Source of the DNA: Quercus robur
Taxonomy: Eukaryota > Streptophyta > Magnoliopsida > Fagales > Fagaceae
Length of the DNA stretch: 64,000 nt
Direction: 5' to 3'
Assembly (NCBI RefSeq): GCF_932294415.1
Contig: NC_065535.1
Coordinates: forward strand, 11,688,282-11,752,281
Below the pieces are notes generated by a model. It worked only from the letters and a program-made list of their open reading frames with translations. It was not told the DNA's origin and ran no database searches. Of the stretch, positions 12,522 to 22,355 are shown piece by piece. The position numbers and the translations under genes are program-made. Each line of letters starts with the position of its first letter. Positions within the stretch are counted from its first letter, which is position 1.

Positions 12522-13957
12522 ATGTTTCCTTGTTTTGTCTTCATAAATCTAAAATTTACTCGTCAACAAAAAATTGTCAAGCTTAATGTTGTTCCCATAA
12601 AATCATCATTGGTCACTGATATTGTTCTGTGGTTGTCATCATTTGAGCAAACACAACCCAGTAACTCTGGTATCACAGGGAGCGTTCTATATTCCACACT
12701 TGGAATAATGCACAGAACCTCTGTATATGAAATACAAGTGGATAGAGGTTCTTTTATTTTATGACAAAGTTTTAGTCATTAGAAAACTAGGCGTATGGTG
12801 TCACTCCATTTAAAATCAATTCAAGTAATTATTCTCTTTATATGGTGGAATGAAATTTTAAATAAAGATTGCCATATATTTTTGAGAGTATCAAAATTAT
12901 ATCTTTTCCATAAAATGAATAGTATATATATAAATATCCTAAACGACGTCTCCAGTAATTAATTTTCAATAATATAGCCAAGTCTTTTTTTTTTTTTTTT
13001 TTGAACCAACGGTAATATAGCCAAGCTTTTGATTCCATTGTTTTCCAAGTATCGCACTGCTTTCTGAATGTTCAATCCTAACAGCGATTAGATTTTAAAT
13101 TGTCTTTGTCAAAAATCTGAAAGTGACATTACTTGGTCTTCTTTATAAAAAGAAGTAGGATTCAAATCCTTCTCCCATTCTAACAATTGAATTGCCATAT
13201 ATTATTATTATTTACTAACGGATGTCTCTAAGACATCTATTAATCATTCATTTTTTTATATTTTTTATGAGAAATTTTTTATCAGTACCTCTTAATTGGG
13301 CTCATATAAAATTGGGTTAAAGTTACTTGGTTAAATAATATTACAACTATTTAATTTGGATCCTTTCCTAGTAAAAAATTCTTTTTTTCTTTTTTGTTGA
13401 TAACAAGGGTGTCCAAACTTTTTCGAATATTTAACTATCCCCTTAGGCATGTACAGATCTCTCGTCCCACAGGATTTCATGGATATTATAAAACTTTCGG
13501 AACTACTAGTAATTGCTAATGTAGGAGGTTCAATGTAAAAACTTTTTTTTTTTTTTTTTTTTTTTGGGCTTGAATAGCTTAAGCCTACTATTAGTCGATT
13601 ATGGGTGTAACGGGCGGCTCAACCATTAAGGCTATGTTTGGTTTGGTGGATTTTGGAAAGGATGGAAAAAAATGAGTGGAAAATAGGAAAGAAAATGAAT
13701 ATGAGTGTTTGGTTGGAAGGAACAGAAGGAGAGAAAAATAGTAGGGTTAGCTGTTTTCTCTATGAGTCTACTAAATCTCAATCTCTCCAAAATAGGAAAA
13801 AAATTGGAGTGAAAATAGGGGGCAAATTTTTGGACTAAAATGCCCCCCCCCCCTCCCCCCCCCCCCTTCCAATGTTATGAGGTTTTGCTTCTTTTTTTTA
13901 GTCATTTGTTTCTTATTGACAGTTTTGTTTTGTTTTTTTTATTAGCTATTCGTTCCT
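12522..13957. other. AT-rich intergenic DNA
   Basis: No gene is seen. It holds T-runs at 12986-13002 and 13543-13565 and a poly(C) tract at 13842-13866. The interval from 13630, opening GGCTATGTTTGGTTTGG, resembles the terminus of plant MITE-like elements, but no matching far end was found. The last 79 bases (13879-13957) are one copy of a direct repeat that recurs at 15535-15612. Confidence 0.45.
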
Positions 13958-14706
13958 GAGTCTTCTGGGTTAATATTGTAAAATTTAAAGTTTATTTGCG
14001 TTATACCAACTGTTCAAAGATAATTGGGAATCTGAGGAGAGAGACTGAATTTCGGCAATGGCATTGCCGAAATTCAGCCAAAAATAGGAGAGAGAATGAA
14101 GAAAGAGGAGAGAGAAAATCTTTGAATTTCGGCAATGGCATTGCCGAAATTCCACTGCCCAATTTTCCCACTCTTGTGCGTCCAAGTGTGCCCAAGTGTG
14201 GAGTGCTCTTAAAATAAAAAATAGCAATGACAGCAATGTCATTGCCGAAATAGGGGAATAATTTTTTTTTTAGCAATTATGATAATGGCATTGCCGAAAA
14301 TGGAAAAAAAAAAAGTGGTTTCGAAATCTTTAGAAGAGTAAAAAACAGATTTCATGTCCATAATATTTTTACAATAAATCCCATATAATTAGTTATTATT
14401 AGTTAAAAAAATTGGTGACAACTAATTGTGGCAATGGCATTGCCGAAATAGGAAAAAAAAATTGTGGTAATATCATTGCCGAAATAGTAAAAAAATAAAA
14501 ATGACAAACTACTTGAAACAATTACATTGCCGAAATAGGGAGAAAAAAATTGGAAATACCATTGCCCAAAAAATATTTTCCCCTATTTTGGCAACATTGC
14601 CGTAAATGGAAAAAAAAAAAGAAAAAAAAAGAAAAAGAAAGAAAACGGCAATGGGATTGCCGAAATAGGGGGGAAAATTCCCCCCTATTTCGGCAATCCC
14701 ATTGCC

Positions 14707-14744
<38 letters not shown>

Positions 14745-15500
14745 CACAATTACGGCAACGGTATTGCCGAAATAGAGGGAAAAAATTTTTCCCCCTATTT
14801 CGGCAATCCCATTGCCGTTTTCTTTCTTTTTTTTTTTTTTTTCATTTACGGTAATGTTGCCGAAATAGGGGAAAATATTTTTTGGGCAATGGTATTTTCA
14901 ATTTTTTTTCCCTATTTCGGCAATGTAATTGTTTCAAGTAGTTTGTCATTTTTATTTTTTTCACTATTTCGGCAATGATATTGCCACAATTTTTTTTTCC
15001 TATTTCAGCAATGCCATTGCCACAATTAGTTGTCACCAATTTTTTTAACTAATAATAACTAATTATATGTGATTTATTGTAAAAATATTATGGACATGAA
15101 ATCTGTTTTTTACTCTTCTAGAGATTTCGAAATCACTTTTTTTTTTCCCATTTTCGGCAATGCCATTATCACAATTGTTAAAAAAAAAAAAAAATTATTC
15201 CCCTATTTCGGCAATGACATTGCCGTCATTGCTTTTTTTTTATTTTAAGAGCACTCCACACTCGGGCACATTCGGACGTACAGGACTGGGAAAATTGGGC
15301 AGTGGAATTTCGGCAATGCCATTGCCGAAATTCAAAGATTTTCTCTCTCCTCTTCCTTCATTCTCTCTCCTACTTTTTGGCTGAATTTCGGCAATGCCAT
15401 TGCCGAAATTCAGTCTCTCTCCTCAGATTCCCAATTATCTTTGAACAGTTGGTATAACGCAAATAAACTTTGAATTTTACAATATTAACCCAAAAGACTC
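13958..15500. mobile_element. Foldback (Mutator-like) element, almost entirely inverted repeat, 1543 bp
   Basis: The sequence from 13958 is reverse-complemented in the stretch ending at 15500. The left end GAGTCTTCTGGGTTAATATTG matches the right end CAATATTAACCCAAAAGACTC, and the match continues inward through two arms of about 700 bp to a centre near 14.67-14.80 kb. It is flanked by a perfect 10-bp direct repeat, ATTCGTTCCT, at 13948-13957 and 15501-15510. Target duplications of 9-11 bp with very long terminal inverted repeats point to a non-autonomous Mutator-like element, but the superfamily is inferred from structure only. It encodes no transposase; the open frames inside are artefacts of the repeats. 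The T-runs at 14709-14744 and around 14829-14841 lie in the central region. Confidence 0.85.
14048..15411. repeat. About twenty copies of a small palindrome based on TTTCGGCAATGNCATTGCCG
   Basis: The unit, itself a palindrome of about 22 bp with one ambiguous central base, recurs through both arms of the foldback element. Near-perfect copies start around 14052, 14130, 14432, 14646, 14687, 14798, 15206, 15307 and 15385; degenerate copies lie near 14236, 14284, 14470, 14526, 14592, 14752, 14848, 14914, 14967, 15001 and 15154. Spacing is irregular (about 35-150 bp), with A- or T-rich filler between units. It is unlike a CRISPR array: there are no uniform spacers and the units degenerate freely. 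Confidence 0.8.
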
Positions 15501-15534
15501 ATTCGTTCCTCCTCTTTTTTTTTTTTTTTTTCCT

Positions 15535-15612
15535 GAGGTTTTGCTTTTTCTTTTTTAGCCATTTGTTTCTTATTGACAGTGTTGTTTTGTTTTTTTTATT
15601 AGCTATTCGTTC
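15535..15612 (+). repeat. Second copy of a ~78-bp direct repeat flanking the foldback element
   Basis: This stretch, from GAGGTTTTGC to GCTATTCGTTCT, is nearly identical and in the same orientation to 13879-13957. The foldback element with its 10-bp duplication sits between the two copies, so the host locus was probably already a short tandem duplication when the element arrived. Confidence 0.75.
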
Positions 15613-15969
15613 TTTTTTTTCCCAGTTTTTTTTTTTTTTTAGAAACCAAGTTTGGGTTCTTCATTCTTGTGCTCTTTTTAAAATGAAGTGTCCATTTGTA
15701 TTATTTATACTATCTATAAAAAGATTTCTCTTTTTGAACTGCTCTTTAGACTAAACTTTTATATGATTTAAAAATACTCTTAGACCTTAAATTTAACAGG
15801 GATAAAACTTGAGAACAACCTGGTAAAAATATATCTCAAACTCCACTTAAAATACCTACAGAATAAGACACTCTCCTATTAATCCATAACTTCAAAACAA
15901 ATTTATCCAAAATTTGTTTAAAAAAAAAAAACTTCACCGGTTTCTTTTATTTAATTTTTGGGTTGTGTC

Positions 15970-16636
15970 TAGGGATGGCAATTTTTCCCCGCCCCGCTTA
16001 ACCCGCCCCTCCCCGCTTTGCCCCGCGCGGGTTTTCCCCGCCCCGCAAAAGCGGTGGGGCGGGGATGGGGCAAGATTTTAGCCCCGCATCACGGGGCGGG
16101 GCGGGGATGGGTTTAGGCTTTTTAGACCCACCCCGCCCCGCCTCGCCCGCGTTACTAAAGGTTATAATTATAAAATTTTCATACCCTAAAACCCTACTAT
16201 TTAAACAAACATATTAATATTAGCATATTTTATTCTACTCAATGTGATTCTTTGCCTTTATTTTGTTGTGTTATACTATGAGATTTTTATTTATTTATTT
16301 TTTTAATGATTGTCTTGATAAACACTTGGATATATTATTCAATTTTTTCTAAAAATTGATTTGATTTGATGGGATAAATTTAGTTGTAATTTCAAGTATA
16401 TTTTTATTAATGAAATAGGTTTCATTAAAAAAATTGTACTATTTGTAGGGCAAATTAACAAAAAGTAGAGTTTTACGGGGTGGGGCGGGGCTTCGTGGAG
16501 CCCCAAGGGGCGGGGATGGGGTGAGAAAGTATTCCCCGTCATGCGGGGCGGGGCGGGGATGGGGCAAGATAAAACTATGCGGGGCGGGGACGAAGACCCC
16601 ATCCTTCGGCCCCGCCCCGCCCCATTGCCATCCCTA
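15970..16636. mobile_element. hAT-like non-autonomous element with GC-rich ends (667 bp)
   Basis: The ends are exact inverted repeats of TAGGGATGGCAAT, flanked by a perfect 8-bp duplication GTTGTGTC at 15962-15969 and 16637-16644. An 8-bp duplication and TAGGG-type termini are characteristic of hAT elements. About 170 bp at each end is rich in CCCCGCCCCGC-type repeats and their complements, so the ends can fold on each other; the core (about 16155-16470) is AT-rich. No transposase is present. The 116-codon frame on the minus strand here is an artefact of the GC repeats. Confidence 0.88.
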
Positions 16637-19226: not shown

Positions 19227-19590
19227 TAAGAATCACATAAAGGTTGGTTACCGATCATCAATATTATCTCAAGCTAAAAATTTATTAAACACACCCATGT
19301 AGTAGTACGAAGGAAAAGAATAAAATTAAATAATTAGCTTGTTACAACTTACAAGAATCACGAGTTTGCAGGAAAATGTATCTGAGATGGTGTCATAACC
19401 AACTAAACCAAGTCTTGAAGAAGTTTAGCTGATTCTAGGATATGAGTTTAAAGATAAATACTCACTGGTGGAAGTTTTTACTTTTTACTCATGCCCATTC
19501 CACAATTCAGGTAAGTATTAAGAAAAGAACAAATCTTACGAACAACTGGGACAGTTGATGACAAGAAAACTATTTTCTTATATATGCAAG
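19227..19590 (+). pseudogene. Truncated tandem copy of the RNase III-like exon 1 and its upstream DNA
   Basis: This segment aligns along its length with about 19950-20350, the upstream region and first exon of the intact gene. The equivalent of the ATG at 20134 is lost. A TAA has replaced a sense codon near the start (in TCATAACC, 19396-19403), and GAG has become TAG in TTTAGCTG. About 30 bases covering the LMGDSVLN catalytic segment are deleted near 19550-19560. Similarity stops near 19590; exons 2 and 3 have no counterpart here. It is a partial, decayed duplicate and cannot make a ribonuclease. Confidence 0.85.
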
Positions 19591-20088
19591 AATAAATGTA
19601 GATTGTTCAAAAATAATGTTGTAAATGATAAACTATACAGGAAATTATTAACCCTAGGAAAAAATCCTAATAAAAAAATAGAAAAAAGAAACTAAAAATA
19701 ATTTTGACGGATAGACATAAATACGAGCATGACAATGGAAAGGATTTAATTGCACATGGATAATATTAATTGCAGTAATTTGATATCATCGGGCACGAAG
19801 ATGACATGCACAATGCAATATTAATTGCAGTAATTTGAGTCTAATTTCTTTTTTGCTGGACTAAAATGCAATGTGATTAAGTTGATTACATAAATATAAT
19901 TATAATTATATTTGTAATATTAATTTTCAAAAGTATGCAAATTTTTACTCATTAAGAATCACCTAAAGATTGATCACCAGTCATCAATACTATCTCACGC
20001 TTTTTAGATTTACTCCAAATGGTTTTAATTGCTAAATAACTATTATTGCCTAATATAACAAACTCAAAAAGCTGTACCAAGCAAAAGA
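19591..20088. other. Upstream region of the RNase III-like gene
   Basis: AT-rich spacer between the pseudo-copy and the intact gene. The 21-nt segment AATATTAATTGCAGTAATTTG occurs twice (about 19763 and 19820). From about 19950 the sequence matches the pseudo-copy's upstream part. An in-frame ATG at 20089 would give a 15-residue extension. Confidence 0.5.
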
Positions 20089-20133
20089 ATGAAATTAACA
20101 ATTAGCTTGTTACAACTGACAAGAATCCCAAGT

Positions 20134-22355
20134 ATGGAGGAAATGGTGTCAGAATCAAGTCTTGAAGAAGTTGAGCTGATTCTAGGATACGAGTTTAAAG
20201 ACAAAAACTTATTACTGCAAGCTTTTACTCATGTTTCATTTCATGATTCAGATAAGTATTCAGAAAAGCACACGTCTTATGAACGATTGGAGCTTATGGG
20301 TGACTCAGTACTCAACTTATTAATGATAAGAAAACTATTTTTCTTATATCCGAAACTCTCTCCTGGAAAGCTAACTTATCTTCGCTCAGATAATACTGAC
20401 AATGAAAAACTTGCACGTGTGGCCTTCAAACAGGGTTTGCATCGATTTCTACACCACAAGAAACCTCATCTTGAGCAAAGTGTAAGTCATTCTGAAAATT
20501 TTCACACCATTTAAAGGTTAGAGATTCGCATAATAGAAAAATGTATAAAATTTATATAGTTTTACCTAAAAATGACCTACATTAGTTTGTGTATAATTGC
20601 GTAAATTTATAATTTTGCTATAGTAACTATGTAAATTTACACTAACACTATTTATTTTGTATTTAATTGTTTATTCTTTCTTTAAGTATCTTGAGATGAA
20701 AAAAAAAATGGATAGTGGTTGTTGTGTGTGAAGAAAGAGAAACAATTTTAAAAATTAAGAAAATTTGATATTTTAATGAAATGTAATGTAAAATAGATAA
20801 TTTGATGTGGAGTGTTTTGAAAAGTGAGTATGTAAAATAGAAAAAGTAAATTCTTATGCTAAAATAGACACAGAAATCTTTGCATGGAATGATGATTAAG
20901 GGGCTTTAATCTCACCAAAACATACTTTTAGACTATTTCTATTTTTGTCTTCAATTCCTTTTGTGACTACACTATGGGACTAAAGTTTCTAGCATGAATT
21001 TGTATAAGGTCAAGCAGAGAGGTGAGGCTCCAAAATAAACATAAATATTCAGTTAAACTAATCTCAAGGTGAGCTCAAAAAGTAGAAAAAAGAAAAACAT
21101 ACAGATTAAATGAAATTGATTTTATGAAATGATACTCCCCTCTGAACTTTAGTCAAAATGACAATTAATCCCAAAGGCTAACTATGGCTTAGCACTATTA
21201 GTTACAAGTTTGATTTTGATGTGATTTTAGTTATTAAGAATCACCTAAAGATTGATTTTAAAAACCAAGAATTGTTTACTTGTTGAGCATCAATGCAATG
21301 ACATATTTTTATGTGTTGATTTTTCAATTAACTTTATGTACACTTGTATCAGATTCGAGAATTTGAGAAAGCAATGGTGGATTATCCTCTGCATTCCCAT
21401 CGCCTTATTCGTGCACCAAAGATCCTAGCTGATGTTCTTGAAGCTGCAATAGGGGCTGTATTCATCGATAGCAATTCAATAGAAACTGTGTGGAAGGTAT
21501 TTCCTCTTCCAATCCTCTCATGATCTCCATAATCAAACTTTGCCTAACAGAGTAAATGTGCAAAAAGTAAGGCTTCATTCATAAATTTACATTACCACTT
21601 GTGTCTTGCAACTCAAAACATTTTGTCATCCTTAGGTGAGAGGTGACAATTAAGAAAGAGATCAGCCTATTGATATTTGGGACTAGATTGAATTATGGTT
21701 GCGATCATTGACAACATTATAGCATTGTATCATTTTATTTTCTGTAAGCATAATTTAAAAATTGGGAATAATTGACCAAACTACCAAATATTAGCATGCA
21801 CCTATATCTTGCACTTGCAACTATTGTTTGAATAATTTTATGAACATATTTACTGAATTTAATTGATGTAGCCGAACCATGGCTTGAAATCATACCTTCT
21901 GGAGAAAAAGAAAAGAAAAATCGATTAATTATGCGTGATACTTACTTAGATAAGTAAGCAATTCATGCTAGGCTTCATATTATAGCAGCACTTGACTGCA
22001 CATTACATTGTTTATCATGTGGTAGGTTTTTGAGGATGTGTTGGAGCCCTTCATTAGTTTGGAAAAGCTTGGAGAGAACCCTGTTACAACACTCTTAGAA
22101 ATATGCCAAAAGAATGGATGCAAGCCTAGATATGATACAGATTCATGGGACAAAGACCAAACTGCTAAAGTCTATGTAAAGGACTGCTTAGTTGGGAAGG
22201 CCACGTTTGGAAAAAAAGACATAGCAATCAACAGGGCAGCTAAGGATGCACTAGACAATATTGATCAAACTTACTTGGTGTTTTCCATGCATGAAAAGGA
22301 TCAAAAATCATCAGATGAAGTGCGTTCTGAGGAAGAGAATAATGAAGATAGTTAA
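20134..22355 (+). CDS. Ribonuclease III-like protein, RTL type: RNase III domain plus one dsRBD (3 exons, 273 aa)
   Basis: Predicted double-stranded RNA endonuclease of the plant RTL group, non-Dicer RNase III proteins linked to rRNA and small-RNA metabolism. Coding exons are 20134-20481, 21353-21496 and 22026-22355. All junctions are GT-AG and phase 0 (EQS-IREFE; VWK-VFEDV). The RNase III domain spans about residues 10-165. ERLELMGDS carries E50, E53 and D57; KILADVLEAAIGA carries D143 and E146, matching the E. coli catalytic set E38/E41/D45/D114/E117. A dsRNA-binding domain follows (about 184-250), ending in the usual AA-rich helix (INRAAKDAL), then an acidic tail. The start at 20134 has a good context; an in-frame ATG at 20089 would add 15 residues. 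One dsRBD resembles RTL1 or RTL3 rather than the two-dsRBD RTL2, but I cannot choose the orthologue from sequence alone. The active site looks intact. Confidence 0.92.

Follow-up and report, generated by a model that had tools for sequence, protein, structure and literature searches.

A 1.5-kb foldback element in Quercus robur shares its ends with large Mutator-like elements carrying a transposase and a PMD gene

Introduction

A stretch of 64,000 nucleotides of the Quercus robur genome (the window; G000:C2:11688282-11752281) contains, at positions 13958 to 15500, a sequence that reads almost entirely as one long inverted repeat. What is this sequence, and how did it come to lie there? We compared it with the host genome (785.7 Mb in 42 contigs, nearly all of it in 12 contigs of 43-98 Mb), and we designate other loci read from that genome by L-numbers. 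The comparison leaves us highly confident that the window element is a non-autonomous foldback transposon of the Mutator-like (MULE) family.

Results

The window element is an almost complete inverted repeat

The features of the element and of its insertion site are as follows.

13958-15500, no strand: whole foldback element, very probably non-autonomous Mutator-like, 1543 bp (ends and flanks, self-alignment, genome copies)
13958-14708, plus strand: left arm, equivalent to the outer portion of the parental terminal inverted repeat (arm alignment 712/739; match to L026/L028 ends)
14709-14751, no strand: central spacer, mostly poly-T (alignment limits; the centre is repetitive, so the limit is approximate)
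14752-15500, minus strand: right arm, the left arm inverted (arm alignment)
13958-13985, plus strand, inverted copy 15473-15500: terminal motif of the GAGTCTTYTGGGTTAATATTGYAAAATT type (genome-wide motif count with reversed control)
13948-13957, plus strand: target site duplication, left copy, ATTCGTTCCT (read directly; 10/10 against right copy)
15501-15510, plus strand: target site duplication, right copy, ATTCGTTCCT (read directly; 10/10 against left copy)
13878-13955, plus strand: host flank, left copy of a tandem duplication of ~79 bp; its right copy lies at 15534-15612 (95% identity)
14050-15408, no strand: 18 near-copies of the 23-bp palindrome TTTCGGCAATGNCATTGCCGAAA (at most 5 mismatches; pattern count)

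A preliminary description of this DNA had proposed a near-complete foldback of 1.5 kb with arms of about 700 bp, little unique core and a clean 10-bp target duplication, and the structure agreed with all of this. The limits were exact to the base, the first being the G of GAGTCT and the last the C of AGACTC, and ATTCGTTCCT on the two sides matched at all 10 positions. Local alignment of the two halves gave 712 identities and 27 mismatches in 739 columns, one of which is the flanking pair 13957/15501, plus 24 gap positions; it scored 1287, whereas 50 dinucleotide-shuffled sequences averaged 31 and never exceeded 50. The element also matched its own reverse complement from end to end at 91% identity. 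The arms make up all of it except the ~43 bp between them, and since the centre is repetitive, the innermost arm parts could pair in other ways. The inverted repeats thus form nearly the whole element and enclose 18 palindromic units, as is typical of foldbacks. A MITE is a short element with short terminal repeats and a size limit of ~800 bp, and the window element, at 1543 bp with ~750-bp arms, does not fit that class.

The insertion site lies in or beside an older host repeat

The ~79-bp host tandem duplication brackets the insertion, with the element at the end of the first copy; one ATTCGTTC is also present in this duplication just to the right of the element. The site belongs to, or adjoins, an older dispersed host repeat. 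When the joined flanks were searched in the genome, we recovered the two flanks themselves and 44 other matches (~38 places) at 67-82% identity, 4 of which spanned the junction. Insertion predicts an empty allele that would read ...CTATTCGTTCCTCCTCT... / ...TAGCTATTCGTTCCTCCTC... Five paralogous sites, T-rich and ~81-85% identical, were read. L063 was clean: it is T-rich and insert-free, has one ATTCGTT and reads ...GCAATTCGTT-TCTTTC... The other four were too T-rich or gapped to judge. The empty site predicted by the preliminary description was thus seen in part, as a single target copy at one of five sites, all of them paralogues rather than alleles, and this paralogous site weakly suggests that the window element was inserted.

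The family has many copies with 9- to 10-bp target duplications

The window element, used as a query of the host genome (786 Mb), returned at least 353 matches. Allowing up to 3 mismatches, we counted the 28-base terminal motif 139 times in forward and 134 times in reverse orientation (273 genome-wide), and its reversed control did not occur at all; 273 ends suggest ~130-140 elements. We examined 41 two-ended copies, which comprise the strongest matches to the window element and pairs among the motif matches listed and so are not a random sample of the ~130-140. L015, L038, L041, L042 and L043, with no facing ends in the stretch read, were dropped before this count; one end seen in L038 was later counted within L059+L060. 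Target duplications flanked 33 of the 41 copies (15 perfect over 10 bp, 14 perfect over 9 bp and 4 over 9 bp with a single mismatch), and the remaining 8 had no recognisable duplication. None was found in 1640 mismatched left/right flank pairs used as a control, and the duplicated sequences varied across the family. Other copies with the same ends and duplications of 9-11 bp, as the preliminary description had anticipated, are therefore present (273 ends; perfect 9-10-bp duplications in 29/41).

Among the 30 elements shorter than 3 kb, 25 matched their own reverse complement end to end or to within 2 bases of both ends, and L007, L014, L039, L040 and L049 showed no such match. The self-match of L044 was at only 63%, and the arms of L020 and L021 were 86-87% alike. 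In L007 (G000:C3:11168050), one end carries the terminal motif as two tandem copies spaced 115 bp (L007:501-616), an arrangement that recalls the tandem-TIR MULEs described in PMC3310237. At G000:C5:84499894-84499996, two end motifs 47 bp apart face away from each other; they may belong to two family members, or to one rearranged copy, lying almost back to back.

Larger members carry a mudrA-type transposase and a PMD gene

Eleven elements longer than 5 kb (6.4 to 17.1 kb) were read. A transposase match was found in 10 and a plant mobile domain (PMD) in 9; a mudrA-type transposase and a PMD gene occurred together in 9 of the 10 elements of 12-17 kb with ends of the window type, and L025 (6.4 kb) had a transposase match without PMD. 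The 911-aa frame at L035:1299-4031 starts with ATG and is closed by a stop codon; in Pfam it matched MULE (PF10551, 2.5e-16), SWIM (4e-10) and DBD_Tnp_Mut (PF03108, 3.7e-09), with a sub-threshold zinc knuckle. PMD was matched at L034:4197-5009 (4.1e-49). Six ORFs in all were scanned against Pfam. Three of them were whole or partial transposase ORFs, one encoded the PMD, one gave no match and one belonged to L036. L034+L035 forms a complete 13,963-bp element with the family end motif, a perfect 10-bp duplication and a stop-free transposase. Genome-wide, there were at least 58 transposase matches, at least 12 of the full length of 911 aa and at least 6 full-length and stop-free, all lower bounds because 50 of 1688 candidates were scored. 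At one further transposase-bearing locus, the two short stretches read were internal array and not ends.

Judged by their reading frames, intact-looking transposase-bearing relatives of the window element persist in the host genome. The Mutator-like partner with the same ends that the preliminary description had called for was thus found in these 12- to 17-kb elements, at least 6 stop-free frames being present, which does not imply activity. The window element shares with these MURA-type transposase/PMD elements its terminal motif and the 9-10-bp size of its duplication. The MULE superfamily is marked by target duplications of 9-11 bp, by terminal inverted repeats throughout the family and by larger members that have the same ends and encode a mudrA/MULE-domain transposase, and the shared ends, the 9-10-bp duplications and the mudrA-type partner support the Mutator-like reading of the insert.

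L036+L037 (G000:C37:60413415-60427538; 14.1 kb) has family ends and a 9-bp duplication, with neither a transposase nor a PMD match. It contains two similar 313-aa frames, of which the one scanned gave ERM_helical below the cut-off, and an internal palindrome array at 6-9 kb. A captured gene or a composite element is possible.

The foldback consists of two parental ends without a core

Positions 1-750 of the left arm aligned to the outermost 772 bp of the left end of L026 and the outermost 791 bp of that of L028, and positions 1-712 matched the outer 774 bp of L030; the innermost part also matched further repeats in those ends. Among the best 8 matches per element in L026, L028 and L030, none to the arm fell in the coding core. 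Over its outer 600 bp, the arm was 90-92% identical to the ends of L025, L026, L028 and L030 and 96.6-98.3% identical to the arms of a sister copy, L006; over their full length, the window element and L006 shared 1447 of 1483 aligned bases, and the alignment contained 96 gap columns. The arms are thus the outer ~750 bp of the parental ends, set head to head and without the coding core. A value of ~60% identity between the ends of L034+L035 and the window element proved to be an artefact of global alignment, since these 600-bp ends differ by an insertion; the pieces aligned by BLAST were 81-89% identical.

We built a tree of the arms of 24 elements (17 short and 7 long, excluding L007, L022, L039, L040 and later-read copies; no support values). 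The arms grouped by side for the window element and L006, for L020/L021, for L012/L017/L018 and for L010/L016. Those of L009/L013 grouped crosswise, the orientation of copies being arbitrary. In L014, L019, L023 and L024, each arm paired with its own partner arm, and L008 and L011 were poorly resolved. Grouping by side indicates that the window element and several other foldbacks were copied as complete units, and it rules out independent birth or arm homogenisation of each foldback as the whole story, although separate birth or homogenisation may account for some copies. The flanks of the window element matched those of none of 17 other copies (E 1e-3, low-complexity filtered), and a few short flank matches linked other copies among the 18 compared. 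The complete foldback has thus been copied to unrelated sites. With arms that are parental ends and flanks that are unrelated, the window element amounts to a pair of ends lacking a core, which has multiplied on its own, most simply with the transposase provided in trans.

These observations fit a mechanism in which aberrant repair or a template switch would have copied one end twice, with loss of the core. The parental transposase would then cut the ends of the foldback in trans and reinsert it, its staggered cutting making the 9-10-bp duplication.

Palindromes are concentrated in ends that diverge faster than the core

Repeated near-copies of TTTCGGCAATGNCATTGCCGAAA make up the arms as arrays of a ~25-bp palindrome. 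With up to 5 mismatches, we counted 515 units in the 47.5 kb of the 30 short elements (10.85 per kb) and none in the remaining 62.3 kb of the window outside the element. With at most 1 mismatch, there were 393 sites in the genome and none for the reversed control, a count that does not imply family membership of every site. In the nine transposase-bearing long elements other than L025, units lay in the outer 2-3 kb, in the noncoding ends, and in all nine a lone unit stood 957-998 bp upstream of the transposase ATG; in L025 it is the array itself that is found near the transposase gene.

The two halves of the palindrome showed no sign of evolving together. Among 116 deduplicated units, there were 52 compensatory double changes, compared with a mean of 52.5 after shuffling, and the complementary fraction was 0.637, compared with 0.651 when partner halves were taken from other units. 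Selection for an RNA or DNA hairpin at each palindrome was thus rejected; half-sites that vary independently fit a dimeric protein site instead. Strong site-by-site conservation was also rejected: in each of three groupings of copies, columns inside the palindromes varied as much as those outside (column-shuffle p 0.82, 0.80 and 0.44), and the lone upstream unit was slightly less conserved than its surroundings (0.957 versus 0.973). We infer that the arrays are multiple protein-binding sites that act by number and not by exact sequence. They may bind the element's own machinery, either the transposase or the PMD protein.

Divergence along the long elements was compared in 28 pairs of 8 elements (L026+L027, L028+L029, L030+L031, L034+L035, L053+L054, L055+L056, L057+L058 and L059+L060; L025, L032+L033 and L036+L037 were left out). 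Mean nucleotide identity between elements was 97.6% in the transposase region and 97.6% in the preceding 1 kb, compared with 89.1% and 88.4% in the two 1-kb ends (aligned fractions 0.65-1.00 for the transposase region and 0.47-1.00 for the ends). The two ends of one element were 93-98% identical. The ends therefore diverge 4-5 times faster than the core, yet stay matched within an element. The same contrast held for the outer 130 bp, most of which the repeat array does not reach, with a mean of 87.9% between elements (82.0-97.7) and 95.3% within them (89.1-97.7), so that the difference is not due to repeat misalignment alone. Two accounts fit this pattern: fast-diverging ends that are homogenised within each element, or cores transferred from one set of ends to another.

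Other explanations of the repeat and of its arrays

Long palindromes are a known assembly hazard, and an inverted repeat produced by chance or by assembly, for instance from a chimeric or mirrored read, had to be weighed. The arms differ at 27 positions and in gaps, which argues against a mirrored artefact; moreover, L006 lies at another locus and groups with the window element arm by arm. Together with this sister copy, the duplications in 33 of 41 copies make an artefact so unlikely that we give it almost no weight. A Rfam structured RNA family was rejected as the identity of the element, as no match was obtained in 13000-16500 at the gathering threshold. The sequence might still be a hairpin locus kept by the host as a source of small RNAs or of the microRNA type, instead of or besides a transposon, its ~700-bp duplex feeding Dicer, perhaps with the RNase III-like gene nearby. 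The predicted RNA fold of a 1000-base piece of the element (14001-15000) was indeed very stable (-505.6 kcal/mol, compared with a mean of -222.2 in 20 shuffles), and a read-through transcript would in principle be a Dicer substrate. The genes of the window include a DEAD/DEAH-box helicase with an S1 domain, RNase III and dsRNA-binding exons, and a methyltransferase; the gene with RNase III and dsrm exons lies ~4.5-7 kb downstream of the element. The preliminary description had connected an RNase III-like gene 5 kb away with small RNAs from the hairpin, as speculation. However, the missing Rfam match, the mirror positions without compensatory covariation and the many dispersed copies with target duplications all speak against such a locus. 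A literature search of main texts with sequence words from the palindrome likewise gave no related paper, by title and abstract start. Silencing siRNAs would be expected from such hairpins anyway and would not imply a host function. We therefore consider a host-kept locus very improbable, and as far as the data go, the RNase III gene is an ordinary neighbour of a transposon. Within the same region, a 77-bp stretch (19406-19482 and 20153-20229) is duplicated 747 bp apart at 86% identity and overlaps the RNase III frame 20059-20514, which suggests a partial gene or exon duplication.

A different proposal concerns the arrays. They could be targets of a VANDAL-like, sequence-specific anti-silencing system, in which the PMD protein or another product would bind to them and remove methylation while the foldback rides along as a dense target. 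The placing of the arrays in the noncoding ends, the single unit ahead of the transposase and the fast divergence of these ends would suit this idea, since the targets of VANC21 are described as tandem, noncoding, fast-diverging and upstream of the transposase as well (PMC5735166, PMC10398659); in addition, PMC7156037 describes the PMD proteins MAIN and MAIL1 as involved in TE silencing in Arabidopsis. On the other hand, the six ORFs scanned against Pfam contained no VANC-type (DUF1985/DUF287) match, although intron-split exons or other ORFs could escape such a scan. The lone upstream unit is not specially conserved, and direct binding of the transposase, as footprinted for Galileo (PMC3688188), would explain the arrays equally well. 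Anti-silencing thus strikes us as unlikely.

Discussion

By all the features compared, the window element belongs to the MULE superfamily in its foldback form, the kind described as FARE and MuTAnT. The FARE elements of Arabidopsis were reportedly introduced by Windsor and Waddell in 2000. They are described as foldback elements of plants that carry long palindromic repeats at each end and are now placed among the MULEs, and like the present family they include a MULE-domain transposase (PMC3169594, PMC4486113). FARE differs in its host. The likeness is one of description; it does not imply sequence kinship, nor does it bear on the PMD gene and the CGGCAATG palindrome arrays of the oak family. 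The MuTAnT/AutoMuTAnT elements of Medicago are likewise foldback MULEs with a putative autonomous mudrA-like relative in the same genome; however, PMC4486113 gives 200-300 bp for 90% of MuTAnTs and insertion in TA microsatellites, unlike the 1.5-kb window element and the varied targets of its family. The Tm1 Mutator/Foldback elements of root-knot nematodes also have 9-bp duplications, composite ends of repeated short motifs, and both MITE-like and transposase-bearing members; they differ in their animal host, a Phantom-like transposase and a 13-15-bp tandem motif, as described in PMC3169594. Galileo of Drosophila has similarly long, internally repetitive inverted ends but belongs to the P-element superfamily, and binding of the transposase to the end repeats, shown there (PMC3688188), is only presumed here. 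VANDAL21 is a MULE with noncoding repeat arrays that diverge fast beside a conserved transposase, the tandem motif arrays being targets of anti-silencing proteins (PMC5735166); VANDALs differ in being non-TIR MULEs (PMC13317346). Among the matches listed in literature searches on oak foldback or Mutator elements and on PMD with MULE, this family was undescribed, which is not proof of absence. We conclude that it is real and well explained, a new family of a known type.

Two aspects go beyond the routine, namely the palindrome arrays in elements that also have a PMD gene, and ends that change fast and together. They raise the idea that this MULE family has its own co-evolving recognition system, in which an element-encoded protein, most interestingly the PMD protein, would read the CGGCAATG-N-CATTGCCG arrays in the ends and before the transposase, countering silencing or marking the family for transposition. 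We regard this as a speculative reading with a rather small chance of being correct. If it were true, the foldbacks would be extreme parasites, consisting of nothing but recognition sites, and the matched, fast-changing ends would be the record of an arms race or of core swaps between sets of ends. Were it to work by countering silencing, it would be a counterpart of VANC based on PMD.

In Arabidopsis, PMD proteins take part in the silencing of transposons (PMC7156037). The presence of PMD beside the transposase of a MULE bears on why transposons keep this domain. With a foldback, its sister copies and intact-looking transposase relatives in one chromosome-scale genome, the oak family offers a system for studying how hairpin transposons are born and move. 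Moreover, the arrays, the PMD gene beside the transposase and the fast co-changing ends make it a testable case for a recognition arms race outside Arabidopsis.
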